43,733 nucleotides of DNA from assembly GCA_003556605.1 (NCBI GenBank), contig PWQX01000234.1, positions 1 to 43,733 on the forward strand, read 5' to 3'. Below are positions 1-28,720 of this stretch, in pieces. The DNA is from Spirochaetaceae bacterium (GTDB lineage Bacteria; Spirochaetota; Spirochaetia; DSM-27196; SLAA01). The notes below the pieces were generated by a model, which ran no database searches, was not told the DNA's origin, and saw nothing but the letters and a program-made list of their open reading frames with translations. Each line of letters begins with the position of its first letter. The first letter of the stretch is position 1. Position numbers and translations under genes: made by a program.

Positions 1-234
1 GAGCGACTCTGTGCCGGTCTCGAGCGTCTGCTCGAACGCCATCCCGAGGCAGGCGGCGTCTTCGCCGTTCGAGACCCCGACCTGCGCACCTACTTCTTGA
101 AGATCACGGTACTCGGCATCTTGTTCAAGGTTGCGCTTGCGGCACCCGAGGAGCTCGACCACGAGATCAGCGAGATGAAGGCCGCAGTGAAGCAGGGGTT
201 TCTGCATCCCCCGTCGCCGGAGGAACCCGTATGA
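1..234 (+). CDS. C-terminal end of a truncated gene, possibly a TetR-type regulator
   Basis: The frame is open from the first base of the window and ends at a TGA that overlaps the ATG of the next gene (ATGA), leaving 77 codons. The visible peptide is helical, with a hydrophobic stretch around KITVLGILFKVALAAPEEL, and has no motif I can assign with certainty. Position and translational coupling to an RND efflux operon, plus the all-helical character, would suit the ligand-binding C-terminus of a TetR/AcrR regulator, but the DNA-binding N-terminus lies outside the window. The family is therefore inferred from context only. Confidence 0.45.
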   Translation, partial: ERLCAGLERLLERHPEAGGVFAVRDPDLRTYFLKITVLGILFKVALAAPEELDHEISEMKAAVKQGFLHPPSPEEPV

Positions 235-1547
235 CAAGCGCGCAGCGGCGTTTACTGTTGATAGCGGCCGCGGCCGCGGTGGTGTTCTTGGGCGTGCCGG
301 CGGCGCAGGTTCTGATGCGGGTGCTCGCGCCGGAGGAAGAGCCGCCGGCCGCCGCGGTCGGCACGGCCGCGGCCGAGCACCGCACGATGCGCGAGCGCCT
401 GCGCTACCCCGGAACACTCCAGGCTGAGCTGCACACCGCGGTAGTTCCCAAGCTCGCGGGAACGGTGCAGGCGGTACACGTTCGCGAAAACCAGAGCGTG
501 GAGCGCGACGAGCAGCTGTTGTCGATCGACGACCGCATCGTTCGCCTTGAGATGCGTCAAGCCGAGGCGGCCATGAACGCGGCCGCGGCCGAGTTAAGGC
601 GCGCGCGGCGCGGTGCGCGCGACGAGGAGCTTGATTCGGCGCGCGCTACGGTCTCGCAAGCCGAGCAGGATTTCACGGTAGCCGAGAACGCGTTTCGTCG
701 CGCCGAGCGGCTATACGAGCAAGGCGCGCTTTCGCGCAGCGACTTCGAGCAGGCTGAAAACCGGTTGGCACGTGCGCGCACCGCGCTTGAGAACGCACGC
801 CGCGAGCTCAAGATACTCGAGGACGGTCCAACGGCAGAGGAGATTGACGCGTTAGAGGCCAACCTCGAAGCAGCGCGGCGGCACTATGAGCTCGCGGCTT
901 TGCGCTACGACGACGCGCGCGTTCTCGCCCCGGTGTCCGGCACCGTCTCTGAGCTGCTCGTCGAGCACGGCGACACCGTGGGTACCGAAGATCCCGTCGC
1001 GCTCATCGTGAGCGACGAGCTCATCAAGCTGAAGCTTCCGATCCCTGAGCGGCATTACGGACGCTTTATTGAGCTCGACCGCACCGAAACGCATATTCCG
1101 GTGACGGTGCGGCCCACCGCGCTCGACGGCAACCCCCAGTTCGAGGGCGAACTCACGCGCGTGGGCCGCACCGTCGCGCCTGACAGCCGCACCTTCACGG
1201 TGGAGGCCGCGATCGCCAACCCGGAAGGCGAGCTGCGCGGCGGGATGTACGTCAACGCGTATATCACCGTGCAGGAGGTGACCGACGCGATCGCGGTGCC
1301 GCGGGGCGCGGTGCTGCGCCGCGCGCACCGGCGGGTGGTGTTTGTATTCGAACCGGAGAACCGCAACGGAGAGGGCGCCGCCCGGCACGGAACGGCGCGC
1401 GTTAAGGAAGTTGAGACCGGAATAGAGGCAGATGGTATGGTGGAGGTTCGTGCCGGACTCGAGCCCGGCGCGACGGTTATCGTTCGCGGTAACGCATTTT
1501 TGGAGGACGGCCAGGCGGTCCGGCGCGCGGCCGAAGAAGCACAATGA
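231..1547 (+). CDS. RND efflux periplasmic adaptor (membrane fusion protein, HlyD/AcrA type)
   Basis: This 438-residue protein should bridge the inner-membrane RND pump and the outer-membrane channel encoded next to it. It has an N-terminal hydrophobic anchor or signal (about residues 8-28), then the first half of a lipoyl/barrel-sandwich domain (VVPKLAGTVQAVHVREN, about 73-95). A long Ala/Glu/Arg-rich coiled-coil hairpin follows (about 105-225), then the second lipoyl half (VLAPVSGTVSELLVEHGDTV). The beta-barrel and membrane-proximal domains end with the family signature around LRGGMYVNAYI and VPRGAVLRR. Length is normal for the family. The ATG overlaps the upstream stop, and its own stop overlaps the permease start (ATGA), so the three pump genes are translationally coupled. 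Substrate cannot be read from the sequence. Confidence 0.93.
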   Translation: MTSAQRRLLLIAAAAAVVFLGVPAAQVLMRVLAPEEEPPAAAVGTAAAEHRTMRERLRYPGTLQAELHTAVVPKLAGTVQAVHVRENQSVERDEQLLSIDDRIVRLEMRQAEAAMNAAAAELRRARRGARDEELDSARATVSQAEQDFTVAENAFRRAERLYEQGALSRSDFEQAENRLARARTALENARRELKILEDGPTAEEIDALEANLEAARRHYELAALRYDDARVLAPVSGTVSELLVEHGDTVGTEDPVALIVSDELIKLKLPIPERHYGRFIELDRTETHIPVTVRPTALDGNPQFEGELTRVGRTVAPDSRTFTVEAAIANPEGELRGGMYVNAYITVQEVTDAIAVPRGAVLRRAHRRVVFVFEPENRNGEGAARHGTARVKEVETGIEADGMVEVRAGLEPGATVIVRGNAFLEDGQAVRRAAEEAQ

Positions 1548-4500
1548 GTATCCCGCGCTTTGCGGTACGTCACCCGGTAACCGTTACAATGGTTTTCGCC
1601 GGGCTTTTCACAATCGGGCTGATATCACTCAGCCGCATCGGACAGGAGCTGTTTCCCGAGGCGACCCTGCCCGCGATCGTGGCGTTCACCCCCTACCCCG
1701 GGGTTGGGCCGTATGAGATAGAATCGGACGTCACGGTAGAGATCGAGGACGCGGTTTCCGGTATCAACGGGCTTGAGCACATCAACTCCACCTCGCGCGA
1801 GGGGCTTTCCACAGTGCGCATGAGCTTCTCGGCCGACACCGATATCGACGCCGCACTGATAGATGTGCGCGAGGCGTTGACCGGTATTGAGGACGACCTG
1901 CCCGAGCGCGCCGAGCGCTCGCAGCTGTTCAAGTTCGAGGGCGGGCTGTATCCGAGCCTCGAGCTGAACGTGTTTTCTACTACCGAGGGAATAGACCTCC
2001 GCAGGCTGGTGGAGCAGCAGATTGAACCGCAGATCGAGCGGGTGCCCGGCGTCGCGCGTGTTGACCTGTACGGCGGGCGCGAGGCGGCGGCAATGGTGCG
2101 GTTGAGCCTCGACAATCTCCGCCGCCACGATATCGCGATCAGCGAGGTGATGCGGGCCTTTGAAGGTGAGAACGTCACGCTCCCCGGCGGATTGATGGAC
2201 CTCGGCGATTACGAGCTGTCGCTGCGTACCATCGGCGAGTTCTCCGAGATCGAAGACATCGGCGAAGTCTTGGTCGCCTCGCGCGGCGGGGTGCCGATCT
2301 TTCTCCGGGATCTCGCCGAGATCGAGCTGGATTTCAAGCCTCAGGACGAGTACGTCCGGGCGGCTGAGGCCGAGGGGCTGCGTCTTGAGGTCCACAAGCA
2401 GCCCGGTTACAACACGGTCGATGTCAACGACGAGGTGCTGCGGCGCCTCAGTCTGCTCGAGCCGCGCTTGCCGGCATCGCTGCGCATCGAGAGTCAAGTC
2501 AATCAGGCCGACCAGGTGCGCGACTCAATTGGGGGTGTTGTCGACGCGGCCTGGCAGGGCGGCATCCTCGCGGTGCTGATACTGTTGATCTTCCTGCGAA
2601 ACCTGCGCTCCACCGTGATCATTACCTTAGTGATCCCGGTCGCGGTGATCTCAACCTTTACCCTGATCGATTTCGGGGGTATGACGCTGAATATCACCTC
2701 ACTGATGGGAATCACACTCGCGATCGGGATGTTTGTCGACAACTCCATCGTGGTGCTCGAGTCGATCTACCGCAAGCAGCTTAACGGCTACGATCCGGTT
2801 GAGGCCGCGGTCCTCGGCGCCGAGGAGGTCTCAACCGCAATCAGCGCCTCAACGCTTACTTCAATGGCCGTGTTCCTGCCGATGCTGTACGTGGAAGGCA
2901 TAGCCGGGATTCTGTTCGAAGACCTCTCGCTCACGATAGCCTTCTCGCTGTTCATCTCGCTCGCCGCGGCGGTGAGCCTCATGCCGGTGCTCTGCTCCCG
3001 CTTCCTGCGCGTGGAAGCCGCAGCGGTGCGCCCCGCTAGCGACCGCGCCGGCGGTGCGGCCGGTACCGGACGGACGGATACGGGCGGGGCCGGCGGCGGC
3101 GGCGGCGAGAGCTACAGCGAGCTCTCGCTCGCCGATATCGAAATCCAGAGCCGCTACCCCTGGGTCAACCGCGCCGCCGCACGCGTACAAGGCATACTGC
3201 AGACCCTGGATTCGGTATACGAGCGGCTGCTGCGCTGGGCCCTCGCGAACATCGCAACAGTGATTGTCTCGGCTGTCCTCTTGTTGGGTCTTTCGTTCGC
3301 CGCGATCCTTCTGCTGGGGATGGAGTTTCTGCCGGAGGCCGACGAAGGCGCCTTCGTGGTGAGCTTCCGCACTCGGCTCGATTCGAGCGCGGCCGAAACC
3401 GGGCGCCGCGTCGCCGAGGTGGAGGAAATCATCCGGGAGGAAGCCGGAGAACACATCACCGCGCTGTCGTCGATGATCGGGGGCGGCGGCATGCCGGCCG
3501 GCGCGCGAACCGGCCGAGGGAACAACGCCGCCTCGGTACACGTCAGCCTCACCGGCGTAGACAAGCGCGATATCGACATCTGGAGCATCACCAACGCGAT
3601 CGACCGCCGCATCGCGCGCGAGCTCATGGATCTAGACTACAATGTAGAGCTGCAAGGCATGGCGGCGATCGCGCAGTCGGCGAGCGGGATAACAAGCCCG
3701 CTGGTCATTGAGCTCACCGGCGATGATTTCGACGAGCTGCGCGCGTATGCCGAACGCATCCGTGAGCGCGCATCGCGGGTGGAGGGCGCGCGTAACGTGC
3801 GCACCGACACGCACGACGGTGCGTTAGAGTTGCAGGCTCGCCTGCGGCGCAGCGAAGCGGTGAGCCTGGGGCTACGCCCGCTCGAGGTGGCGCAAACGCT
3901 GCGCACCGCGTATCACGGAACCGAGGTTTCACGGTTCACCAGCGGCAACCATCGCTACGACGTGTGGCTGATGCTGCGGGACGAGGACCGCAACGATCGT
4001 GAAGCGTTACGCTCGCTGTTCTTCAAGACGCCGCACGGGGTCAGCGTGCCGATTGAGAGCGTGGTTGATCTGGAGGAGGCGATCGCGCCCGACGCGATCC
4101 GCAGGCTGGACCGGGTGCGCAACGTCAACGTCCTCGCCAATCTCACCGGCGAGCGCGCGCTTAATCGCGTGATGCGCGACATGCAGCAGGAAGTTGCCGC
4201 GATGGGTGACCCTCCCACCGGGATTGAGATACACTACACCGGCGCGGCGGAGGAGATGGCTGAGAGCTTCGAAAGCCTGTTCTACGCCCTGCTGTTGGCA
4301 ACCTTGCTGGTTTACATGGTGATGGCAAGCCAGTTCGAGTCGTTCGTTGACCCGTTCATCGTGATGTTCTCGGTACCGTTCGCAATTATCGGCCTCGTCG
4401 GGGCGCTGATCATCACCAACGCAACCTTCAACATTCTGTCGTTCGTGGGAGCGATACTCTTGGTAGGGCTGGTTGTAAACAACGCCATCGTGCTGATCGA

Positions 4501-4846
4501 CTACATGAACACCCTCAGACGCCGGGGGCTCGCGCTCAAGACTGCGGTGATCCGCGGCGGGCGCACCCGTCTGAAACCGGTGCTGATGACCTCAGCTACC
4601 ACGCTCTTGGCGCTGCTCCCGATGGCGCTGGGAATCGGCCCCGGCGCCGAGCTGCGCTACCCCATCGGGCGCGCCGTGGTCGGCGGGCTCACCACCTCCA
4701 CACTCATTACGCTGGTGCTCATACCCACGCTGTACTATCTCATCGAACGCCGCCTCGAGCACCGGCGCGCAACGGCCGACTCAGGGGCGCAAGCCCATAA
4801 CCGCCCCGAGCACCCCCACCAGGAGAGCGTCGATGCCGGCTCGTGA
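1544..4846 (+). CDS. RND-family efflux permease (HAE1-like)
   Basis: This is a 1100-residue inner-membrane proton-driven exporter subunit of the AcrB/HAE1 type. The start (MSIPRFAVRHPVTVTMVFAG) is the usual cytoplasmic end and TM1. TM4 carries IGMFVDNSIVVLESI with the conserved Asp at about residue 399; the second Asp of the AcrB pair is Asn here, as in many HAE1 members. TM10 (VGLVVNNAIVLIDYMN) lacks the acidic residue, also usual. The TM6-TM7 cytoplasmic loop (about 495-530) holds an unusual Gly/Ala/Arg/Thr-rich low-complexity insert. The C-terminus RYPIGRAVVGGLTTSTL is typical. It overlaps the adaptor by 4 bp and the tolC-like gene by 14 bp. Confidence 0.95.
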   Translation: MSIPRFAVRHPVTVTMVFAGLFTIGLISLSRIGQELFPEATLPAIVAFTPYPGVGPYEIESDVTVEIEDAVSGINGLEHINSTSREGLSTVRMSFSADTDIDAALIDVREALTGIEDDLPERAERSQLFKFEGGLYPSLELNVFSTTEGIDLRRLVEQQIEPQIERVPGVARVDLYGGREAAAMVRLSLDNLRRHDIAISEVMRAFEGENVTLPGGLMDLGDYELSLRTIGEFSEIEDIGEVLVASRGGVPIFLRDLAEIELDFKPQDEYVRAAEAEGLRLEVHKQPGYNTVDVNDEVLRRLSLLEPRLPASLRIESQVNQADQVRDSIGGVVDAAWQGGILAVLILLIFLRNLRSTVIITLVIPVAVISTFTLIDFGGMTLNITSLMGITLAIGMFVDNSIVVLESIYRKQLNGYDPVEAAVLGAEEVSTAISASTLTSMAVFLPMLYVEGIAGILFEDLSLTIAFSLFISLAAAVSLMPVLCSRFLRVEAAAVRPASDRAGGAAGTGRTDTGGAGGGGGESYSELSLADIEIQSRYPWVNRAAARVQGILQTLDSVYERLLRWALANIATVIVSAVLLLGLSFAAILLLGMEFLPEADEGAFVVSFRTRLDSSAAETGRRVAEVEEIIREEAGEHITALSSMIGGGGMPAGARTGRGNNAASVHVSLTGVDKRDIDIWSITNAIDRRIARELMDLDYNVELQGMAAIAQSASGITSPLVIELTGDDFDELRAYAERIRERASRVEGARNVRTDTHDGALELQARLRRSEAVSLGLRPLEVAQTLRTAYHGTEVSRFTSGNHRYDVWLMLRDEDRNDREALRSLFFKTPHGVSVPIESVVDLEEAIAPDAIRRLDRVRNVNVLANLTGERALNRVMRDMQQEVAAMGDPPTGIEIHYTGAAEEMAESFESLFYALLLATLLVYMVMASQFESFVDPFIVMFSVPFAIIGLVGALIITNATFNILSFVGAILLVGLVVNNAIVLIDYMNTLRRRGLALKTAVIRGGRTRLKPVLMTSATTLLALLPMALGIGPGAELRYPIGRAVVGGLTTSTLITLVLIPTLYYLIERRLEHRRATADSGAQAHNRPEHPHQESVDAGS

Positions 4847-6395
4847 CGCCGCACCGCGCCCGCCCGGCGGGCCGCTCATCGCGGCGCTTTGCGGCGCCGC
4901 TCTGCTCATCGGCACAGCCCTGCCCGCCGGGACGGCGGCCGCCGGCGCACCCGAACCGCAGTCCGCTGCTCCGCCGGCCGCTGCTCCGCCGGCCGGAGGC
5001 GCCGGGCACCTGAATCCGCACGCGGGCGAGCTCAGCGTGGATGAGGCCGTTGAGCAGGCGCTGCGCAACGCCGGCGCCGCCCGCCGCGGCCGCCTCGAGG
5101 TCAGCCGCAGCGACGCCGCCTACCGCTCAGCACGCGCCGAACGCTTCCCGAGCCTCTCGCTTTCCCTCTCCGGCAGCTACCTCACCCACCCGGACGAAAC
5201 CCTCGAGCTCGGCGCGGGGTCGATCACCACCATCGAACAGGGCCGGTTAGTTGACGAAGATGCGGGACTCCAGGGTCCGAATAACGGTGAGCCCATCGAA
5301 ATACCCAGCGAACCTATTCCAATCCCGCCGGATGACCTCACCATAGACCTGGACTTGCCGCATACGGTGTATCGCGCAACTGCGACGCTTGCGCAGCCGC
5401 TTTTTACCTGGGGGCAGATATCGCGGAGCATCGACGCCGCGCGCTTAGAGCGCGAGGTGCGGCGTGCCCAGCTGCGCGAGATCAAGGTGGAGCTGCGGCG
5501 CGAGGTGCGAGAGGTGTACTTTGGAGCGGTGTTCGGCCGCGAGGCCGAGGCGCTTCTGGTGGAGATGGAGCGGGCTCTCGCCCAGATCGTCAGCGACCGG
5601 CGCACGAGCTACGAGCAGGGCACGGTGACACGCGAGGCGGTGCTCGAGGCCGAGGCGCAGCAGGCCGAGCTGCGCGCGGGACTCGCCGAGACGCGCGAAG
5701 CGGTGGAGGATGCGCGCGAAGCGCTCGCGTTTTACACCCGCGGCGGCCGCCCGGACCCCGAGTGGCTGAGCTCGGCGTTTCGCACGAAAGTACCGAGCTT
5801 CAGCGAGCCGGAGCTCGTGGAGCAAGCCCGCGCAGCCTCACCGCGCCGCGATGCGTTGTCGTTGCGCCGCCGGCAGGCTGAAGCCGCGGCCGCCGCCGAA
5901 CGCGGCGACCGTCCGCTGTTTCCGCAGCTCGGCCTTGAAGTCAGCCTAGAGGCAGACACCGACAAGTTCCCGCTGCTGGAGGACCAGTGGCGCGATCGCT
6001 CGGATTACAACGTCATCATCAGTATCGGCAGCGACGTAACGCTGTTCGACGCCGGGCGACGACGCTGGAGTATCGCCGAAGCCGAGGAGCGCGCCGAGAT
6101 CGCACGCACCGGGCTGGAAGAGCTTGAACACTCCTTGTCGCTGGAGGTTCGCCGTGCCGTCGGTTCACTGCGCCGCGCCGAGGCCGCCGTCGCCCGGCGC
6201 AAGACTGAGCACGCCTACGCCGCCGAGCGCTACCGCAACGCGCGCATCGCCTACGAGAGCGAAGCTATCACCCGCGAACAGGAACGCCTGGCCCGACTGA
6301 GCGAGCTCGAAGCTGAGGCGGCGCTGCTGGAAGCCCGCTACGAGCTCGAACGCGCGCTGACGAGCCTGGAGTACACCATTGCCGGCGCGCTCTAA
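4833..6395 (+). CDS. TolC-family outer-membrane efflux channel
   Basis: This 520-residue protein is the outer-membrane exit duct for the adjacent RND pump. A signal peptide (about 1-36, with LIAALCGAALLIGTALPAG) is followed by a Pro/Ala-rich linker. Two TolC/OEP repeats come next: the first starts at LSVDEAVEQALRNA with beta-strand segments around PSLSLSLSGSY and a coiled coil. The second starts around FSEPELVEQARAASPRRDAL with LFPQLGLEVSLEADTD and a C-terminal coiled coil. The ATG lies 14 bp inside the end of the permease gene. An insert rich in Pro, Ile and Asp between the first strands (about 140-175) may be an extracellular or periplasmic loop. Function is clear from fold and operon. Confidence 0.92.
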   Translation: MPARDAAPRPPGGPLIAALCGAALLIGTALPAGTAAAGAPEPQSAAPPAAAPPAGGAGHLNPHAGELSVDEAVEQALRNAGAARRGRLEVSRSDAAYRSARAERFPSLSLSLSGSYLTHPDETLELGAGSITTIEQGRLVDEDAGLQGPNNGEPIEIPSEPIPIPPDDLTIDLDLPHTVYRATATLAQPLFTWGQISRSIDAARLEREVRRAQLREIKVELRREVREVYFGAVFGREAEALLVEMERALAQIVSDRRTSYEQGTVTREAVLEAEAQQAELRAGLAETREAVEDAREALAFYTRGGRPDPEWLSSAFRTKVPSFSEPELVEQARAASPRRDALSLRRRQAEAAAAAERGDRPLFPQLGLEVSLEADTDKFPLLEDQWRDRSDYNVIISIGSDVTLFDAGRRRWSIAEAEERAEIARTGLEELEHSLSLEVRRAVGSLRRAEAAVARRKTEHAYAAERYRNARIAYESEAITREQERLARLSELEAEAALLEARYELERALTSLEYTIAGAL

Positions 6396-7659
6396 ACCCC
6401 CGGGCGGCACCGCCTCGCAATCACCCAGCAGGGTGGTCCTGCTCGGCGGAGGCCACACGCACGTCATGGTGCTCGCTGCAGCGCGGCGTCTGCATGCCGC
6501 CGGAGCTGAGGTCACCGTCGTAAGCCCGAGCGTGTTTCAGTACTACTCGGGGATGGGACCCGGGCTTCTCGGCGGGATGTACACGCGCGAGCACTCGCGT
6601 TTCAACCTGCCACGTCTTACCGCGCCGGCCGGCGTGCGCTTCATTCGCGCCGAGGCAACCTGCATAGACCCGGTTCGACGGATTGTGCACCTCGGCGCCG
6701 GGGCCGGAAGCGAGTGCTTCGGGTCCGGCCCGCTGCACTACGACTTGCTGTCCTGCAACACCGGAAGCAGCGTGAAGGACGAGCTGCTGACCCCCGCCGC
6801 CCGCGCTGAGCTCGGCCGCAGCGTGTTCACCGCCAAACCAATCCGCTCGCTGCTGTCGGCGCGCATCGCGCTGCTGCGTGGACTCCGGCGCGCCCGGCAC
6901 TCGGGCGAACCGCTGCGCGTAGCGGTAATCGGCGGGGGCGCCGGCGGCGTGGAGCTCGCCGGTAACATCCTGCGCCTTGCCGCAGCGGCCGGCGCCGGCG
7001 GCGTCCGCGCCGAAGCCGCCCACCGGGGTACCAACGCGCGTGACTCTGCGCTCGAGCTCACGCTGTTCCACCGCGGACGCCTGCTGCCCGCGCTCCCGCC
7101 GGCCGCCCGCGCCGCCGCCCTGCGCTCGCTGACCGCGCGCGGTGCGGCGGTTCGCGAGCACGTTGAGGTAGCCGCAATCGCTCCGGGCCGCATCGGCTTC
7201 AGCAACGGGTCACAGCACCCGGTACATCTGGTGGTGCTGGCAACCGGCACACGGCCGAGTGAGCTCCTCGCGCGCTCAGACCTCGCCCACGACGGCCGCG
7301 GCGCGATGCGGGTCAACCGCTATCTCCAGTCGGTCACGGCGCCCGAGATCTTCGGCTCCGGCGACTGCATCAGCTTCGACCCTGCGCCGCTCGACGCGGT
7401 CGGCGTCTACGCCGTGCGCCAGAGCGCCACCGTCACGCACAATCTGCTCGCCATGCTCACCAACACCCGCATGCACCGATTCCGCCGGGCGGGCGCCTAC
7501 CTCGCCGGGATCAACCTAGGCGACGATACCGCTATCCTCTCCAAGTGGGGCATAGCGATGCACAACCGCACCGCGCTGCGCATCAAGGAGCACTACGACA
7601 TCGGCTTTGTCACGCGATTCGCCGGGGGAGGAACCCCGAGCGCCGCAGAGCAGCCCTGA
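6379..7659 (+). CDS. NAD(P)/FAD-dependent oxidoreductase, NDH-2/SQR-like (the type also found fused to SelD)
   Basis: This 426-residue flavoprotein has an N-terminal FAD-binding motif of the variant GGGHTHVMVL, a second dinucleotide fold (VAVIGGGAGGVELAGNI, about 179-195), and a C-terminal FAD site EIFGSGDCIS. GGGH-T-HV is typical of the pyridine nucleotide-disulfide oxidoreductases related to type II NADH dehydrogenase, sulfide:quinone reductase and the domain fused to selenophosphate synthetase in some organisms; no SelD is nearby. The chosen start is a TTG inside the end of the tolC-like gene with GGAG 7 bases upstream; the first FAD strand begins 18 codons later, so a later start (GTG near 6433) is possible. 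Electron acceptor and substrate are unknown. Confidence 0.8.
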   Translation: MPARSKPPGGTASQSPSRVVLLGGGHTHVMVLAAARRLHAAGAEVTVVSPSVFQYYSGMGPGLLGGMYTREHSRFNLPRLTAPAGVRFIRAEATCIDPVRRIVHLGAGAGSECFGSGPLHYDLLSCNTGSSVKDELLTPAARAELGRSVFTAKPIRSLLSARIALLRGLRRARHSGEPLRVAVIGGGAGGVELAGNILRLAAAAGAGGVRAEAAHRGTNARDSALELTLFHRGRLLPALPPAARAAALRSLTARGAAVREHVEVAAIAPGRIGFSNGSQHPVHLVVLATGTRPSELLARSDLAHDGRGAMRVNRYLQSVTAPEIFGSGDCISFDPAPLDAVGVYAVRQSATVTHNLLAMLTNTRMHRFRRAGAYLAGINLGDDTAILSKWGIAMHNRTALRIKEHYDIGFVTRFAGGGTPSAAEQP

Positions 7660-21207: not shown

Positions 21208-22512
21208 ATGGATGGGTCAATCGTAGTGGTCGGCGCCGGGCCGGTGGGGTTGGCGGTTGCCGGCCTGTTGCAGCGCCGCGGCGTTGCGGTGACGGTGCTG
21301 GAGCGCGAACAACGGCGCACGCGCGCCTCGCAGGCTATCGGCGTCACGCCGCCGTCGCTGGAGATACTCGATGAGATCGGCTGCGCCGAGGAACTGATCG
21401 CGCGCGGGGTGCGCATCGAGAGCGCGGTGGTGCACAATGAACGCCGCCGGCTCGGCGCGCTCGGTTTTGGCGGCCTGGGCGGGCGCTTTCCGTTCATCTT
21501 AGCGGTTCCGCAGCACCACACCGAGGACGTGCTGCGAGCCCGCCTCGGCAACGGTGACGGCCGCTGTGCGCACATGCGCTACGGCGTGGAGGTCGAGGCG
21601 CTTGAAGCGGCGCCGGGAGATCGCACTGCCGCAGCGGGTACGGCTCCGGATCCCGGCGAGCAATCCAGCGAACGCGCGCGGCCGCTAATCGTCCACGCGC
21701 GGGGTCCCGGGGAACCCGTCAGGCTCGGAGCCCGCGCGGTGGTGGTGTGCGCCGGGGCGCGCGACCGCCTGGCACCGGCGCTCGGCATCAAGCGCCGGCG
21801 GCGCGTGTACGGGGTGAGCTTTGCGATGGGCGATTTCCGCGGCGATCCACACGGCTTGGGTCCCGAGGCACACCTGTTTTTCACCGCCGACGGTGCTGTA
21901 GAGTCGTTCCCGTTAGGACCGCAGCTACGCCGCTGGATCGTACAGCTGCCGCCGCACCCGCGGGAACACCCCGGGCGGGCAGACAAGAAGCCCGCCGACG
22001 AAGCGGCTGAGGTGGTCGCGAAGCTGGTTAGACTGCGGACCGGGCTGCCGTTACGCGCCGGGGACTGTACCTGGGACAGCGGCTTCACTCCGGAGCGCAC
22101 CGAGCTCGAGCACTTTGTGCTGCAGCTCGGCGCCAGCCCAGCCGGGCGGGCTTCCGGTTCGGGCGGCGGGCCGGTGGTGTTTGCCGGCGATGCGGCGCAC
22201 ACCATGCCGCCGATCGGCGGCCAGGGTATGAACACCGGGTTCGCCGACGCCGCCCGCGCGGTGGAAATGCTGTGCGGTGAAATCTCGCCGACGGAGTACG
22301 AGCGGCGGCGCAAGCGCGCCTTCCGCGCGGCGGCTCGGCGCGCGCGCACATCTATGGCGGTCGGAACCGTGCGCGGGCGCGTACGCTCAAGTCTGCGGGC
22401 AGTAGCGATCACAGCGGCGCTGCGCAGTCCCGCAGCGGGTCCGCTCGCCCGGACATACGCCATGCGCAGCCTGCCCGATACACGCAGCGGCGCAAGTGAC
22501 GAGGCGGTATAG
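21208..22512 (+). CDS. FAD-dependent monooxygenase (PHBH/UbiH-like aromatic hydroxylase)
   Basis: This 434-residue group A flavin monooxygenase has the N-terminal FAD motif IVVVGAGPVGLAVAGLLQRRG and the second FAD motif VVFAGDAAHTMPPIGGQGMN (about 323-342). The C-terminal continuation NTGFADAARAVEML is typical of hydroxylases acting on phenols and quinone precursors. ATG 21208 is preferred to TTG 21199 because the latter would use the -10 box as coding sequence. The PKS gene begins 141 bp downstream, and the pairing recalls SrsA/SrsC-type alkylresorcinol hydroxylation to a quinone. The C-terminus is basic and Arg/Ala-rich. Substrate assignment is inferred from neighbours. Confidence 0.83.
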   Translation: MDGSIVVVGAGPVGLAVAGLLQRRGVAVTVLEREQRRTRASQAIGVTPPSLEILDEIGCAEELIARGVRIESAVVHNERRRLGALGFGGLGGRFPFILAVPQHHTEDVLRARLGNGDGRCAHMRYGVEVEALEAAPGDRTAAAGTAPDPGEQSSERARPLIVHARGPGEPVRLGARAVVVCAGARDRLAPALGIKRRRRVYGVSFAMGDFRGDPHGLGPEAHLFFTADGAVESFPLGPQLRRWIVQLPPHPREHPGRADKKPADEAAEVVAKLVRLRTGLPLRAGDCTWDSGFTPERTELEHFVLQLGASPAGRASGSGGGPVVFAGDAAHTMPPIGGQGMNTGFADAARAVEMLCGEISPTEYERRRKRAFRAAARRARTSMAVGTVRGRVRSSLRAVAITAALRSPAAGPLARTYAMRSLPDTRSGASDEAV

Positions 22513-22607
22513 CGGGGCAGCACGGGGTCACAGCGGCGAGCGGCCGGCGGCTGCAGGCCCTTTTCGTGCAGGTGGTCAAAACCTTTCCTGAGTCTATCGA
22601 TCAGTAA

Positions 22608-22637
22608 TTGCCTTTCGGTACCGGAGTGCACTACTTT
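22608..22637 (+). promoter_or_regulatory. weak predicted promoter upstream of the type III PKS gene
   Basis: TTGCCT (22608-22613), an 18-base spacer and TACTTT (22632-22637) are modest matches in the 141-bp gap before the PKS gene. A separate promoter here would let the PKS-methyltransferase-flavoprotein trio be expressed apart from the monooxygenase. Confidence 0.25.
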
Positions 22638-22653
22638 TATGGGAGCAAAGCAT

Positions 22654-23769
22654 ATGTCAAGCACTACCGAATCACACCCAGTTTACCTTCAGGCCATTGA
22701 GACCGTTGTCCCGCAGTACTCATACACGCAAGAGTACGTGCTGGATTTCATGCAGCGCCTGCCGGTCTACTCCGGGCGCCAAGGTTTCCTCGCGAAGGTC
22801 TATCGCGGCAGCGCGATTGAGCGGCGCCACAGCGTAATCGGCGACTACCGTCGACCGCCGGCAGAGCGCACGTTCTACCCGCCCACTGAGGACCTTACGC
22901 CCGAACCGGATGTGGTGGCCCGCAACGAGCTGTTCGTCACCGAAAGCAGAAACATCGCGCTCGAAGTTGCACGAAAGCTCTTCGCGGCGATGCCGCAGGT
23001 GCAGCCGAGCGACATCACGCACCTTATTACCGTGAGCTGTACCGGCTTCTCGGCGCCGGGGTTCGATTTTTACCTCGCGCGCGAGCTGCCGCTGCCGGCC
23101 GCGGTCAACCGCCTGCACGTCGGCTTCATGGGCTGCTACGCTGCATTTCCGGCGCTGAAAACCGCACGCGACATCTGCCTCGCGGACCCCCGCGCCCGGG
23201 TGCTGATCGTTGACCTCGAGCTGTGCTCGCTGCACTTTCAGCAGAAGCTCGACCCCGACATCATGGTGGCGAATGCGCTGTTTGCCGACGGGGCTGCGGC
23301 CGCGCTGGTCTCAAGCGAGGCACCGCGTGAGGGCTCCCCGTCGTTCCGCCTCGACGCGTTCCAGTCCTACATCATCTCCGATAGCGACGGCGACATGGCG
23401 TGGACGGTGGGACACACCGCGTTCGACATGCGTCTTTCGGCGTACGTCCCCAAGCTCATACAGCGCGAGATCCGCAGCATAACTGAAACGGTCTTCGCGC
23501 GCGCCGGCGTTTCGCGCGAGGACATTGCGCAGTGGGCGATTCATCCCGGCGGCAGAGCGATCATCGAGAAGGCCGCCGCCGAGCTCGATCTCTCCGAAGA
23601 GGATGTAAGCGCGTCGTACGCGGTGCTGCGCAACTACGGCAACATGAGCTCGGTCACGATTTTCTTTGTGTTGCAGGAGATGCAGCGCCTCGGCCGGCGC
23701 GGCCGGACGTTCGCCGCGGCCTTTGGACCCGGACTGACGGTGGAATCCGCGATTCTGAGGTCAGCATGA
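22654..23769 (+). CDS. type III polyketide synthase (chalcone/stilbene synthase family)
   Basis: This 371-residue homodimeric KASIII-fold enzyme should extend an acyl-CoA starter with malonyl-CoA and cyclise the product to an alkyl-resorcinol, -pyrone or related ring. The full catalytic triad is present and spaced as in plant enzymes: Cys161 in HVGFMGCYAAFPAL, His297 in WAIHPGGRAI and Asn330 in RNYGNMSSVT. FADGAAAALVS and AAFGPGLTVE are also typical. ATG 22654 has GGGAG 8 bases upstream and is preferred to ATG 22639. The stop overlaps the methyltransferase ATG (ATGA). The product cannot be predicted from sequence alone; absence of plant-type Phe gatekeepers was not assessed. Confidence 0.92.
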   Translation: MSSTTESHPVYLQAIETVVPQYSYTQEYVLDFMQRLPVYSGRQGFLAKVYRGSAIERRHSVIGDYRRPPAERTFYPPTEDLTPEPDVVARNELFVTESRNIALEVARKLFAAMPQVQPSDITHLITVSCTGFSAPGFDFYLARELPLPAAVNRLHVGFMGCYAAFPALKTARDICLADPRARVLIVDLELCSLHFQQKLDPDIMVANALFADGAAAALVSSEAPREGSPSFRLDAFQSYIISDSDGDMAWTVGHTAFDMRLSAYVPKLIQREIRSITETVFARAGVSREDIAQWAIHPGGRAIIEKAAAELDLSEEDVSASYAVLRNYGNMSSVTIFFVLQEMQRLGRRGRTFAAAFGPGLTVESAILRSA

Positions 23770-24536
23770 CCGAGACGCCCCAGACCGTGCTCGAGGTGCT
23801 GCGCGGCGACTTCACCCGCCGTTGCACCGCACCCGAGCTCATGGACAACCCCCACAGCGATCAACACCGGTTGGAACGAACCCTCCGGCAGTTCGCGGCC
23901 ATCAACCGGGTTTTCAGTCGCTACCGCACCGTACTGCGTTCCCGATTGCTCGGTGACGCCGCGGCCGCCGGCTTGCGGCGCATCAGCGTGCTTGATGTGG
24001 GAGGGGGCGGCGGCGACATCGCCCGCTGGCTGACCGCCGCGGCAGCACGTGCCGGGGCCGAGGCCGAAGTCACGATACTCGAGTCCGATGCCCGCGTGGC
24101 CGCGTTCGCCCGCCGCGCATGCGCCGCCTACCCGCAGATTACGATCGAGGAAGGCTCTGCCCTCGAGCTCGGGCTCAACAACGCGAGCGCGCGCTATGAC
24201 TACGCGATCTGTAACCACCTTCTGCACCACTTTTCCGACCAGCAACTGCCGGCGCTGCTGCGACGCATGGCCGCGGCGGCTCGCCGGCGCGTGATCGCGA
24301 ACGATTTGCTCCGCCACCGGCCCACTGCCGCCGCGTTCGCTCTCGTCGCTTCCATATTCTATCCGCGCAGTTTCGCTCAGCTCGACGGCACGCTGTCGAT
24401 ACGCAAAGGCTTCCTCCCTGAGGAACTACGCACCGCTCTCCTACGTGCAGAGCTAGCCGACCACGCGGGCGTATACACATTGGCGCCCGGTCGAATCGTT
24501 CTCGAGATAGATACACACTCGGGGAGCCGCGTGTGA
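23766..24536 (+). CDS. class I SAM-dependent methyltransferase
   Basis: This 256-residue protein has a Rossmann SAM fold: VLDVGGGGGDIARWL (motif I, about 78-92), TILESDARVAAFARR (acidic end of beta 2), EEGSALELG (motif III region) and YDYAICNHLLHHFSDQQ (post-motif HHF as in UbiE/phenol methyltransferases). The N-terminus ELMDNPHSDQHRLERTLRQF is typical of methyltransferases next to bacterial type III PKS genes. It overlaps the PKS (ATGA) and the following flavoprotein (GTGA), so the three are co-translated. A role in O- or C-methylating the polyketide ring is inferred. It is not the integral-membrane SrsB-type enzyme. Confidence 0.85.
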   Translation: MTETPQTVLEVLRGDFTRRCTAPELMDNPHSDQHRLERTLRQFAAINRVFSRYRTVLRSRLLGDAAAAGLRRISVLDVGGGGGDIARWLTAAAARAGAEAEVTILESDARVAAFARRACAAYPQITIEEGSALELGLNNASARYDYAICNHLLHHFSDQQLPALLRRMAAAARRRVIANDLLRHRPTAAAFALVASIFYPRSFAQLDGTLSIRKGFLPEELRTALLRAELADHAGVYTLAPGRIVLEIDTHSGSRV

Positions 24537-25717
24537 GAAGCCCAATCGACGTCGTGGTCGCCGGAGGCGGCTTTGCCGGCGTCGCCGCCGCCGCACGCCT
24601 TGCCCGCCGGTCGAAACTCAACGTTACCCTGCTCGACCCCAAGGCGGCCTGCGAAATGCTCCCGCTGCTACCCGACATAGCCGGCCGCCGTCTCACCTCC
24701 GCAGCCGGACAAACCTCACATCGGGCAATCGCCGCGCGCCACGGCTATCGCTATATTCAGCACGCCGCGCTGGAACTGGACCGCGCCGCGCGCCGCCTCA
24801 CTACAACGGAGCACCGTGCACTGCCCTATGACTTCTTGCTGCTTGCACACGGCGGGCACGCGGCGTTCTACGGTAACGAGTCCGCCGAACGCCACGCGAT
24901 ACCGCTCAGAACGCTCGCCGACGCTCTCAGAGTCCGACGGAGCGTCAGCGCTGCGGCGCAGCGCGCTTTCCTCGTCGTCGGCGGCGGCTATACCGGAATA
25001 GAGCTCGCCACCCACGTGCATCGCGCCTGCGCACTCTGCGCCCGCGGCGCGCCCCGCGGCGCCCGCTCACGCGAGGGCACCACGGCACCCGCAACCGCCG
25101 GGTCTCCATCGCCGCGGGTCATCATCGTAGAAGCCGCCGATGAGATCCTCGGCATGCAGGAACCCTGGATGCGCCGCTGGGCGCTCACGCATCTCAAGCA
25201 ACTCGGAATCGAGGTCCGCACCGGCACAACCGTGCAAACCGTTGAGCCGGGCGCCGCCACGCTGTCGGACGGAAGGCGCCTTACCGAGACAACGACCCTG
25301 TGGACGGCCGGCATGCGCGTACACCCGATTCCCGGCAGCCCGGCAGCCAACGGCCGCCTCGCGGTCGACGAACATCTGCAGCTCGGCGACGGGGTGTTTG
25401 TCGCCGGCGACGCGGCAGCGTTCACCCACAAGGGTGCGCTGCTGCCCCCGGCAAGCTATATCGCCGTGCAGCAGGGCCGCCGGGCGGCGCAGAACATTGA
25501 GCGAGCCGCCGCCGGGCGGCCGCTTCTGCCCTACCGCCCATTACTGCACGGGTTCGTCATACCGGTGGCCGGAGGAAGCGGCTGCGGCCGGATACACGGC
25601 CTTCCGCTGACCGGCCGGCCGGCCGCCGCAGTCCATTATTCGGCGGCAGCCGCGCGGGCGCACAGCTTCGCGCAGCGCTGCGCCATCTTGCGCGACCTGG
25701 CGCGCAGCCCGAGCTAG
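24533..25717 (+). CDS. NDH-2-like FAD/NAD(P) oxidoreductase in the PKS operon
   Basis: This 394-residue protein has FAD motif VVVAGGGFAGVAAAARLARR at the N-terminus, a second dinucleotide fold FLVVGGGYTGIELATHVHR (about 145-163) and FAD site GVFVAGDAAAFTHKG. The overall fold fits type II NADH:quinone oxidoreductases and related quinone-reactive flavoproteins. An Ala/Gly/Arg-rich insert follows the second fold (about 165-195). GTG 24533 overlaps the methyltransferase stop by 4 bp. Being the last gene of a PKS-methyltransferase operon suggests it acts on a ring product of the pathway, either as a tailoring dehydrogenase or as the reductase of the finished quinone. No obvious C-terminal membrane helix is visible. 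Confidence 0.8.
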   Translation: MRSPIDVVVAGGGFAGVAAAARLARRSKLNVTLLDPKAACEMLPLLPDIAGRRLTSAAGQTSHRAIAARHGYRYIQHAALELDRAARRLTTTEHRALPYDFLLLAHGGHAAFYGNESAERHAIPLRTLADALRVRRSVSAAAQRAFLVVGGGYTGIELATHVHRACALCARGAPRGARSREGTTAPATAGSPSPRVIIVEAADEILGMQEPWMRRWALTHLKQLGIEVRTGTTVQTVEPGAATLSDGRRLTETTTLWTAGMRVHPIPGSPAANGRLAVDEHLQLGDGVFVAGDAAAFTHKGALLPPASYIAVQQGRRAAQNIERAAAGRPLLPYRPLLHGFVIPVAGGSGCGRIHGLPLTGRPAAAVHYSAAAARAHSFAQRCAILRDLARSPS

Positions 25718-25763
25718 GTTAGCGGTCCCTGAGGTTAGACGCCCCGGAGGTTAGAGGCCCCAG
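25716..25763. repeat. 16-bp tandem repeat, three copies, between convergent genes
   Basis: Units start at 25716, 25732 and 25748; each opens AGGTTAG and ends in a C-rich segment. The array fills the 33-bp gap between the flavoprotein stop and the TPR-like gene stop, and the third unit contributes the TAA stop and last codons of the latter. No clear terminator hairpin was seen. Confidence 0.65.
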
Positions 25764-26689
25764 TCACCGGCAAGCTCGCGGGAGTGCTCGAGGTCGTTGA
25801 GCTGGCGCCGGCTCGGGTTCTCAACCGCTTCGAGCCTCTCGAGCAGACCCTTCAAAACGAGGCGCGCCTCGTCGCGGTCGGAGAGCGGCTTGAGCATAAG
25901 CGAGCCTTCGTACACATAGGAACGTTCAATCGGGGTCTTTGCCTGCGCGTAATCAGCACGCAGGCGCGCGTGCCGGCTTTCGCGGCGGCGCTCGCTCCAG
26001 TTGCGTGACCACAACCGCTCGGCCAGCCCGGTTACGACGCTGTCATATCGGACCTTGATCTCGCGCGCCTCGTAATCCTGCTCGTGCAGGTCGTAGGCGC
26101 GCCGGGCGAGCGACACCGCACGTGCGTCATTACCGAACGACAGCGGGCGGCCCGGCAGCTCGTCGTAGAGCTGCGACAGCAGAAAATGTGCCTCGGTATG
26201 ATCGGGGTCGCGCTCGAGAGCAGCTTCACCGAGATCGCGGACATCACTTGCCATAAACAGTGCTCGAATCACGCCGCGTATCAGCCCCCGCAAACCTTTC
26301 GCCGAACCTTTCCAGAAGTAGGCGCCGGCCAGATCGGGATCAAGCGCAATCGCTTCGGCGGCGTACTCCTCGGCCTTCTTCAGCCGCTCGCGCGCTACTC
26401 GGTCATCGAGTTCATCCGCGTGGTAGTAGAGCTCTACCTCGGCGACAATCGCGCGCGCGCGCCGCTTGACTAGACGTGCCCGCTCGACATCGTTCATACC
26501 TGTTGCCTCGAACGCGCCGCTGTCAAGCTCGTGCTCCAATCGTTCCAGGACCTCCTCGTGGTGGTCCTGAAAGTGTAGACGATCCAACTCACGCAGCAGA
26601 TCTTCAAACTCGGCCGCAAACGCTGCCGGGAGTGCCGCCGCGACGAACAGCACACCCAGTGCTCCAGCTCGCACTTGTCGCATCATCAC
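25751..26689 (-). CDS. periplasmic TPR-like repeat protein of unknown function
   Basis: This 312-residue protein begins with a signal peptide (about 1-26, cleavage probably after AALPAAFA). The rest is helical with TPR-like units: ARERLKKAEEYAAEAIALDP followed by DLAGAYFWKGSAKG, and LGEAALERDPDHTEAHFLLS. The C-terminus is rich in Arg/Glu and resembles a coiled coil. The start could be GTG 26689 (AAGGAG 7 bases upstream) or the ATG at 26686; the gene overlaps the ugd stop, so the two are co-translated. I do not recognise a specific family. Possible roles are scaffolding envelope or glycan-export complexes, but that is only suggested by ugd. Confidence 0.75.
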   Translation of the reverse strand: MMMRQVRAGALGVLFVAAALPAAFAAEFEDLLRELDRLHFQDHHEEVLERLEHELDSGAFEATGMNDVERARLVKRRARAIVAEVELYYHADELDDRVARERLKKAEEYAAEAIALDPDLAGAYFWKGSAKGLRGLIRGVIRALFMASDVRDLGEAALERDPDHTEAHFLLSQLYDELPGRPLSFGNDARAVSLARRAYDLHEQDYEAREIKVRYDSVVTGLAERLWSRNWSERRRESRHARLRADYAQAKTPIERSYVYEGSLMLKPLSDRDEARLVLKGLLERLEAVENPSRRQLNDLEHSRELAGDWGL

Positions 26690-28216: not shown

Positions 28217-28337
28217 TGCCTACGGCATCGCTGCAAGCCCGCGTGCGGCATCGCTGCAAGCCCACCTACGGCATCGCTGCAAGCTCACCTACGGCATCGC
28301 TGCAAGCTCGCGTGCGGCATCGCTGCAAGCCTGCTGC
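28217..28337. repeat. 23-bp tandem repeat, five copies
   Basis: Copies with invariant core GGCATCGCTGCAAGC start at 28224, 28247, 28270, 28293 and 28316; the variable 8-base remainder alternates between CGCGTGC-like and CACCTAC-like forms. A partial unit (CCTAC) precedes the first. The copies abut without spacers, so this is not CRISPR. The period is not a multiple of three, so the array is unlikely to be a coding repeat. Confidence 0.9.
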
Positions 28338-28576
28338 GGACGCATTTCCCGGCGGGAGCGGGGCGGGCAGTACTGCCGCAGCCGTCACTTACCCACCGGG
28401 CATTCGGCTTATCGCGCACCGGCAGGCATTGCAACTCGCTGGGGGCGGGCTTCGCCGGACATGTGGCTTTCCGCGGCCGGGGAGGTGCGAACCCATTACG
28501 GGCGGTACCTCCCGGGGTGCGGCACCGCGGCGACGGGACACGCCGCGGGAGCGAGGTATGGGAGTTGGCCGAGTTT

Positions 28577-28651
28577 GTGTTAACAATGCGGCACATACGC
28601 ACGCTAACAACGCTGCAAAATGCTGAGGTACAGGGTCGCGAGAAATCCCCC
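28577..28651 (-). repeat. dispersed ~80-bp intergenic repeat, copy C (inverted)
   Basis: Read on the minus strand this gives GGGGGATTTCTCGCGACCC, then CCTCAGCATTTTG, then a TTGTTAGCG block, and TTGTTAACAC. It aligns with copies A and B over its whole length but is more diverged. It faces copy A across about 360 bp that contain the 23-bp array. Confidence 0.6.
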
Positions 28652-28720
28652 AGCATCTCGCGGCATCCCCGAGCATCCCCCAGCATCTCGCAGCATCCCC
28701 CAGCATCTCGCGGCATCCCC
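28651..28720. repeat. 10-bp tandem repeat, seven units
   Basis: Seven consecutive decamers of the form C-A/G-GCAT-C-(TCG or CCC), for example CAGCATCTCG and CGGCATCCCC. They partly alternate to give a 20-bp higher-order period. It lies directly outside repeat copy C and about 250 bp upstream of the AbiEi-like gene. Confidence 0.8.

Follow-up and report, generated by a model that had tools for sequence, protein, structure and literature searches.

A spirochaetal type III polyketide synthase gene cluster with a predicted role in alkyl-benzoquinone synthesis and reduction

Introduction

The srs/PkQ operons of Actinobacteria (Mycobacterium, Streptomyces) direct the synthesis of alkyl-benzoquinones that serve as alternate electron carriers (PMC9927152, PMC5916927). 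Three like gene types occur in hidABC and in planctomycete operons, where the products are hierridins or C-methyl-alkylresorcinols (PMC10896814, PMC8086630). In C. glutamicum, the three planctomycete genes gave C-methylated alkylresorcinols only (PMC10896814). The ring type formed by type III polyketide synthases (PKS) of Azotobacter depends on a single position: Trp281 in ArsB directs the enzyme to resorcinols, Gly284 in ArsC to pyrones (PMC6274091). In the parts of the literature that were accessible, type III PKS, UbiE and quinone are named together only in passing.

The locus described here lies in a Spirochaetota genome of 3.88 Mb (99.4% complete, 296 contigs). The window, that is, the whole stretch of DNA analysed, comprises 43,733 nucleotides and corresponds to one contig (C268). 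The nearest named relatives are MAGs of Spirochaetaceae, Spirochaetales and Spirochaetes, whose isolate names presumably denote salt- and soda-lake sediment samples. Gene content and conservation suggest, with a probability slightly above one half, that the locus represents a spirochaetal form of srs/PkQ that makes a methylated alkyl-benzoquinone, recycled by the operon's own NADH-dependent reductase in a non-respiratory role.

Results

Organization and conservation of the cluster

A sequence-only reading had described four genes at positions 21208–25717 with ATGA and GTGA overlaps. All four open reading frames were found again, encoding a flavin monooxygenase (FMO), a type III PKS, a methyltransferase (MT) and an NDH-2-like flavoprotein (Table 1), as were both overlaps: the MT start lies inside the PKS stop (ATGA, 23766–23769) and the NDH start inside the MT stop (GTGA, 24533–24536). 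The PKS is the single type III enzyme found in the genome. The profile and genome-neighbourhood searches that the same reading had advised gave the protein families and revealed conservation of FMO-PKS-MT across the order. The PKS was detected in 28 of the order's 46 genomes, and the gene order FMO, PKS, MT is constant wherever contigs are long enough, with the MT directly 3' of the PKS throughout; thus, the arrangement is not due to chance. The TPR gene adjoins the cluster in 18 of the 25 relatives' loci examined. A genome of another family (G027) carries a cluster 77% identical to that of the window, which suggests either transfer of the unit between families or misbinning. The viral contigs searched contained no relatives.

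Table 1 Features of the cluster and its surroundings in the window.
Feature	Position	Strand	Profile match or assignment
FMO	21208..22512	+	PF01494 FAD_binding_3, 8.2e-32; FAD-dependent aromatic monooxygenase-type, likely ring hydroxylase
ubiE-like 5'-end scar	22555..22638	-	Alignment with G001, G003 and G027; overlies start region shared with PKS
Type III PKS	22639..23769	+	Chal_sti_synt N 1.5e-23, C 5.6e-25; predicted alkylresorcinol synthase
Class-I SAM MT, PRK06202-like	23766..24536	+	Methyltransf_25 1e-12
NDH-2-like NAD(P)H:quinone oxidoreductase-type flavoprotein	24533..25717	+	Pyr_redox_2 5.7e-35
TPR protein, probably exported	25751..26689	-	Convergent conserved neighbour; pathway membership uncertain

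PKS and FMO residues

The PKS catalytic triad comprises Cys166, His302 and Asn335. These residues and Trp255 are invariant in all 19 members of the order that were aligned, and are present in 65 aligned relatives, incomplete rows aside. The nearest relatives of known structure include the alkylpyrone synthase PKS18; in the printed alignment Trp255 stands opposite its Leu266 and a Trp of Steely1. Trp255 presumably occupies the position of ArsB Trp281, an equivalence drawn through the aligned PKS18 Leu266 and Steely1. The locus therefore combines a Cys-His-Asn triad and a Trp at the predicted resorcinol-determining position with an MT and a flavin hydroxylase in one cluster, as expected of an srs/PkQ type.

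The nearest curated profiles of the FMO are of the FAD monooxygenase and UbiH types, every one of them below its cut-off, and the PDB matches are polyketide oxygenases and rifampin and phenol monooxygenases. The GD motif is conserved. The Asp of the DG motif is replaced by Ala182 in the window and is also lost in G027. A canonical FMO would depend on O2, yet no terminal oxidase was detected in the genome. If the FMO does use O2, the product could be made only during oxic episodes, in line with an antioxidant role.

Two methyltransferases and the loss of ubiE from the cluster

The model nearest to the in-window MT is NF004851/PRK06202, with 171 bits, below the cut-off of 243. The label 'UbiE-like' previously given to this protein has to be withdrawn, as no UbiE model is among the matches listed. 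Although the in-window MT is not UbiE, a UbiE enzyme does appear to belong to the pathway.

At least 20 relatives carry, between FMO and PKS, a gene for a UbiE/MenG-type C-methyltransferase that is oriented divergently from the PKS. This gene is gone from the cluster in the window, where the 126-bp gap holds an in-frame remnant of the ubiE start (RQLLIDRLRKGFDHLHEKG versus RQLVMTEARNIFDNPDRKR; aligned core at about 22570–22615). The stretch is the beginning of ubiE in G001, G003 and G027, and its score was reached by 0–2 of 1000 shuffles. An intact ubiE ortholog of the same genome, sharing 72% identity with the copy of another member of the genus, is found among unrelated neighbours on another contig (G000:C292:17738-18469). 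All four UbiE proteins scored against TIGR01934 (cut-off 158.35) pass, with 178.7 bits for the copy of this genome and 167.6, 161.8 and 160.0 bits for the others; the former passes this subfamily model and none of the equivalog models.

PKS and strong UbiE matches co-occur across the 46 genomes of the order (both in 25, PKS only in 3, UbiE only in 1, neither in 17; 25 of the 29 holding either), with a Fisher p value of 1e-8, such values being optimistic because the genomes share ancestry. G009 and G010 hold the PKS without UbiE. In the sole UbiE-only genome (G036) UbiE and FMO lie at a contig edge, so the PKS is probably unassembled there. In a tree, the PKS-linked UbiE proteins do not group with canonical UbiE/MenG: those of four phyla fall on one side (support 82/96) and the small sample of 8 canonical sequences on the other (98/96). 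This moderate support suggests that the PKS-linked proteins form a sister family of canonical UbiE/MenG.

Quinone and respiratory genes

The search for menaquinone and ubiquinone genes advised by the earlier reading was run with profiles on this single fragmented assembly of 296 contigs. It detected no UbiA/MenA-family protein (14 of 14 controls were detected), no MqnA or MqnD and no MenD above cut-off. Elsewhere in the order, matches to MqnA are weak, and those to MenD do not exceed about 78 bits (cut-off 244), except in G010 (167–169 bits). The order's MenD matches were rejected as true MenD, being acetolactate-synthase-like by score, with G010 excepted. Sister species retain a UbiA-IDS pair, and the genome described here has neither UbiA nor an IDS ortholog. 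The same profile searches found no cytochrome bd (CydA; 0 of 46 genomes in the order), no haem-copper oxidase (COX1; 4 of 46) and no NuoD (4 of 46) in this genome. Because no UbiA, MqnA or MenD exceeds its cut-off, the UbiE of this genome is left without another obvious substrate. It would need one, and the PKS product is the candidate suggested by the position of the gene in relatives.

The NDH-2-like flavoprotein

The AlphaFold model of the NDH-like protein (21 sequences, pLDDT 86) shows the NDH-2 fold, with two Rossmann domains and C-terminal helices at residues 361–374 and 379–390. NDH-2 structures are the top Foldseek matches (TM 0.84), followed by FSP1 and SQR. Assignment as a sulfide:quinone reductase or an FSP1-like protein was rejected, since both rank below NDH-2 by sequence and by fold. 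The quinone-site motif AQxxxQ of NDH-2 is absent; residues 308–313 read SYIAVQ, with the second Gln retained, and the protein is therefore named NDH-2-like only. With this change to SYxxxQ and the loss of the DG-motif Asp in the FMO, the activities of both enzymes are putative.

The NDH-like gene occupies its cluster position in the genus of this genome only, where adjacency to the MT is maintained in three species; G001 has a second contig with an identical TPR-NDH-MT arrangement. Within the genus, the PKS-operon copy is the only NDH of the 400-aa kind, and UbiA-IDS forms a locus of its own in G001 and G003. Outside the genus, the 400-aa NDH homologs of the order, kept separate here from the large Pyr_redox proteins (about 650–750 aa) of PKS-less relatives, head an operon with a MenA-like UbiA and a polyprenyl synthase (IDS). 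At least 15 of the order's genomes have NDH-UbiA, mostly with IDS, and NDH is associated with PKS presence (p = 8e-4). The NDH of the genus is strongly divergent from the others and may be, judging from sequence, either their ortholog or a replacement. Its absence from the cluster in other genera indicates that the core pathway can do without it. The NDH-2 fold and the homologs beside prenylquinone-type genes speak for the proposal that it reduces the cluster's product with NAD(P)H, the altered quinone motif against it.

Related clusters in other phyla

The PKS belongs to a widespread family. PKS-MT-FMO triads were found in Bacteroidota, Balneolota, Gemmatimonadota and Actinomycetota and on a Deinococcus radiodurans plasmid. 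The PKS accompanied by UbiE, often with FMO, occurs in Verrucomicrobiota, Myxococcota and Thermodesulfobacteriota, and one verrucomicrobial locus (L158) holds PKS, FMO, UbiE and MT all together. In these phyla, YceI-like, MMPL or MlaE/ABC genes lie near the PKS-UbiE clusters. Polyisoprenoid lipids are the ligands of YceI proteins, which fits a carried or exported lipid or quinone cargo.

Discussion

From gene content, families, conservation, co-occurrence and the absences in profile searches, we infer the following reactions and physiology. The PKS would extend a fatty-acyl starter with malonyl-CoA and close the ring by aldol condensation to give an alkylresorcinol, whose ring the FMO would hydroxylate. 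The in-window MT, probably an O-methyltransferase, and the UbiE-type C-methyltransferase would methylate the ring, UbiE being supplied from elsewhere in this genome and from within the cluster in relatives. The product would be oxidised to the quinone, spontaneously or by an enzyme, and the operon's NDH-2-like enzyme would maintain the quinol state with NAD(P)H. Because no terminal oxidase was detected, the lipid is seen as an NADH sink, an external electron mediator or an O2- and radical-scavenging membrane lipid rather than a classical carrier. The choice of these functions, with radical trapping of the FSP1 type among them, in place of respiration is the weakest step, and no quinol-oxidising partner was identified. 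The earlier idea of a self-contained redox carrier or antioxidant lipid accordingly keeps its srs-like quinone chemistry and loses a classical respiratory role, for which the genome lacks complex I and the quinol oxidases searched for. It is doubtful that the polyketide quinone is in addition the only quinone, having replaced prenylquinones in anaerobes without terminal oxidases by means of a recruited UbiE-family enzyme and a dedicated NDH-2-like enzyme; if it is, the locus would represent a complete stand-alone redox-lipid module whose core is common to several phyla.

The cluster could instead make a hierridin-like phenolic lipid, a hydroxylated and methylated alkylresorcinol acting as membrane component or allelochemical outside any redox cycle, with the NDH a chance neighbour or active elsewhere. 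This is what hidABC and the planctomycete operons would predict from their three shared gene types (PMC10896814, PMC8086630), and the clusters of other genera do lack the NDH; however, the linkage, in four phyla, of the PKS and a UbiE/MenG-type enzyme, the MT-NDH adjacency in three species and the NDH-2 fold make it rather unlikely. An alkylpyrone synthase with tailoring enzymes, yielding methylated pyrones devoid of redox chemistry, would suit the proximity to PKS18, but is very improbable in view of the linked ring hydroxylase and quinone-type methyltransferase and of the invariant Trp at the cyclisation position, which is Leu in PKS18 and reportedly Gly in ArsC (PMC6274091).

The NDH-UbiA operons of the order, mostly with IDS, and the association of NDH with the PKS raise another alternative, in which the PKS ring receives an isoprenoid tail from the MenA-like prenyltransferase and the polyprenyl diphosphate synthase. 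Since clear MenD and MqnA are missing, no ring donor is apparent for the MenA-like enzyme, and a polyketide could fill that place. Yet UbiA-family genes also occur in PKS-less members of the order, the genome described here has neither UbiA nor an IDS ortholog, and MenA-like enzymes could take scavenged DHNA, as proposed for the DmkA of lactobacilli (PMC9888254); such a polyketide-headed prenylquinone is improbable. The methylated alkyl-benzoquinone is thus preferred, and the anticipated ring-hydroxylated, methylated phenolic lipid or quinone gains support by inference from the triad, the Trp and the PKS-tied UbiE/MenG-type enzyme in a genome without detected prenylquinone genes.

Comparison with known systems

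The kind of pathway is already known, as srs/PkQ make alkyl-benzoquinones and the planctomycete and cyanobacterial triads make alkylresorcinols or hierridins (PMC9927152, PMC5916927, PMC10896814). Three features are new: a UbiE sister family that accompanies type III PKS in four phyla, an operon that includes an NDH-2-like gene, and a host in which no prenylquinone genes were detected. To our knowledge, polyketide quinones have been known only as alternates alongside menaquinone, in Actinobacteria. A lineage that seemingly has the polyketide route and lacks prenylquinone genes makes the idea of a sole, non-isoprenoid redox lipid testable, and the PKS-linked UbiE family is a marker for finding such pathways.

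The NDH-UbiA-IDS operon of the spirochaete's relatives, absent from its own genome, resembles the NDH2-DmkA-DmkB core of the flavin-based extracellular electron transfer loci of Listeria and Lactiplantibacillus in combining an NDH-2-type protein, a MenA-like prenyltransferase and a polyprenyl synthase. The triads of Bacteroidota, Balneolota, Gemmatimonadota, Actinomycetota and Deinococcus, for which we know of no characterisation, have homologous PKS, MT and FMO, but in the order PKS-MT-FMO and without linked UbiE or NDH. hidABC and the planctomycete mtr-fdo-PKS operons share the three gene types and have alkylresorcinol-derived, methylated products; they differ in gene order, UbiE and NDH have not been reported for them and their products are not known to be quinones. 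The closest likeness is to srs of Streptomyces griseus and pkqABC of Mycobacterium smegmatis and Streptomyces sp. MNU77, in the gene types (PKS, MT and flavin hydroxylase) and in the predicted alkylresorcinol-to-benzoquinone logic. In contrast to srs/PkQ, the spirochaetal host has no detected menaquinone genes or terminal oxidase, and its pathway has a PRK06202-like class-I MT, an extra UbiE-type C-methyltransferase and, as the sequence-only reading had noted, an NDH-2-like gene within the operon.

Neighbourhood of the PKS cluster

In most relatives within the order, a TPR gene lies convergent with the PKS cluster, with ~38–47% identity outside the genus, and thus its position beside the methyltransferase and NDH-2-like flavoprotein (NDH) genes is conserved. 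The cluster of G027, a genome of another family, is 77% identical to that of the window (locus L035, G027:C421), whereas the clusters of its kin are ~50% identical; the high identity may reflect a misbinned contig or horizontal transfer of the whole unit. Elsewhere in the window, a second Pyr_redox_2 flavoprotein gene overlaps the final gene of an HlyD-AcrB-OEP efflux operon.

Coordinates of the features discussed.
Feature	Location	Strand	Remark
HlyD-AcrB-OEP efflux operon	window 231-6395		
Second Pyr_redox_2 flavoprotein	window 6379-7659	+	directly 3' of efflux operon
TPR protein, probably exported	window 25751-26689	-	convergent with cluster
Tandem repeat, 23-base unit, 5.3 copies	window 28218-28339		apparently intergenic
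Further repeat array, 10/30-base units	window 28645-28720		
MenD-like protein	L185:8272-10092 (genome G010)		169 bits versus cut-off 244

Quinone genes and other phyla

An operon of NDH, UbiA (MenA-like) and polyprenyl synthase genes occurs throughout the order (loci L183, L189, L208-L211 and L213-L223). Clear MenD or MqnA is absent from the spirochaetes carrying it, and scavenged DHNA or a polyketide ring may be its ring donor. G010, the relative encoding the MenD-like protein, has a PKS cluster without UbiE; the surroundings of its MenD-like gene look like a sugar or polysaccharide gene run.

In Myxococcota, Thermodesulfobacteriota and Verrucomicrobiota, YceI-like and MMPL genes adjoin PKS-UbiE (L143, L108, L114 and L158), which suggests product binding and export in these three phyla.
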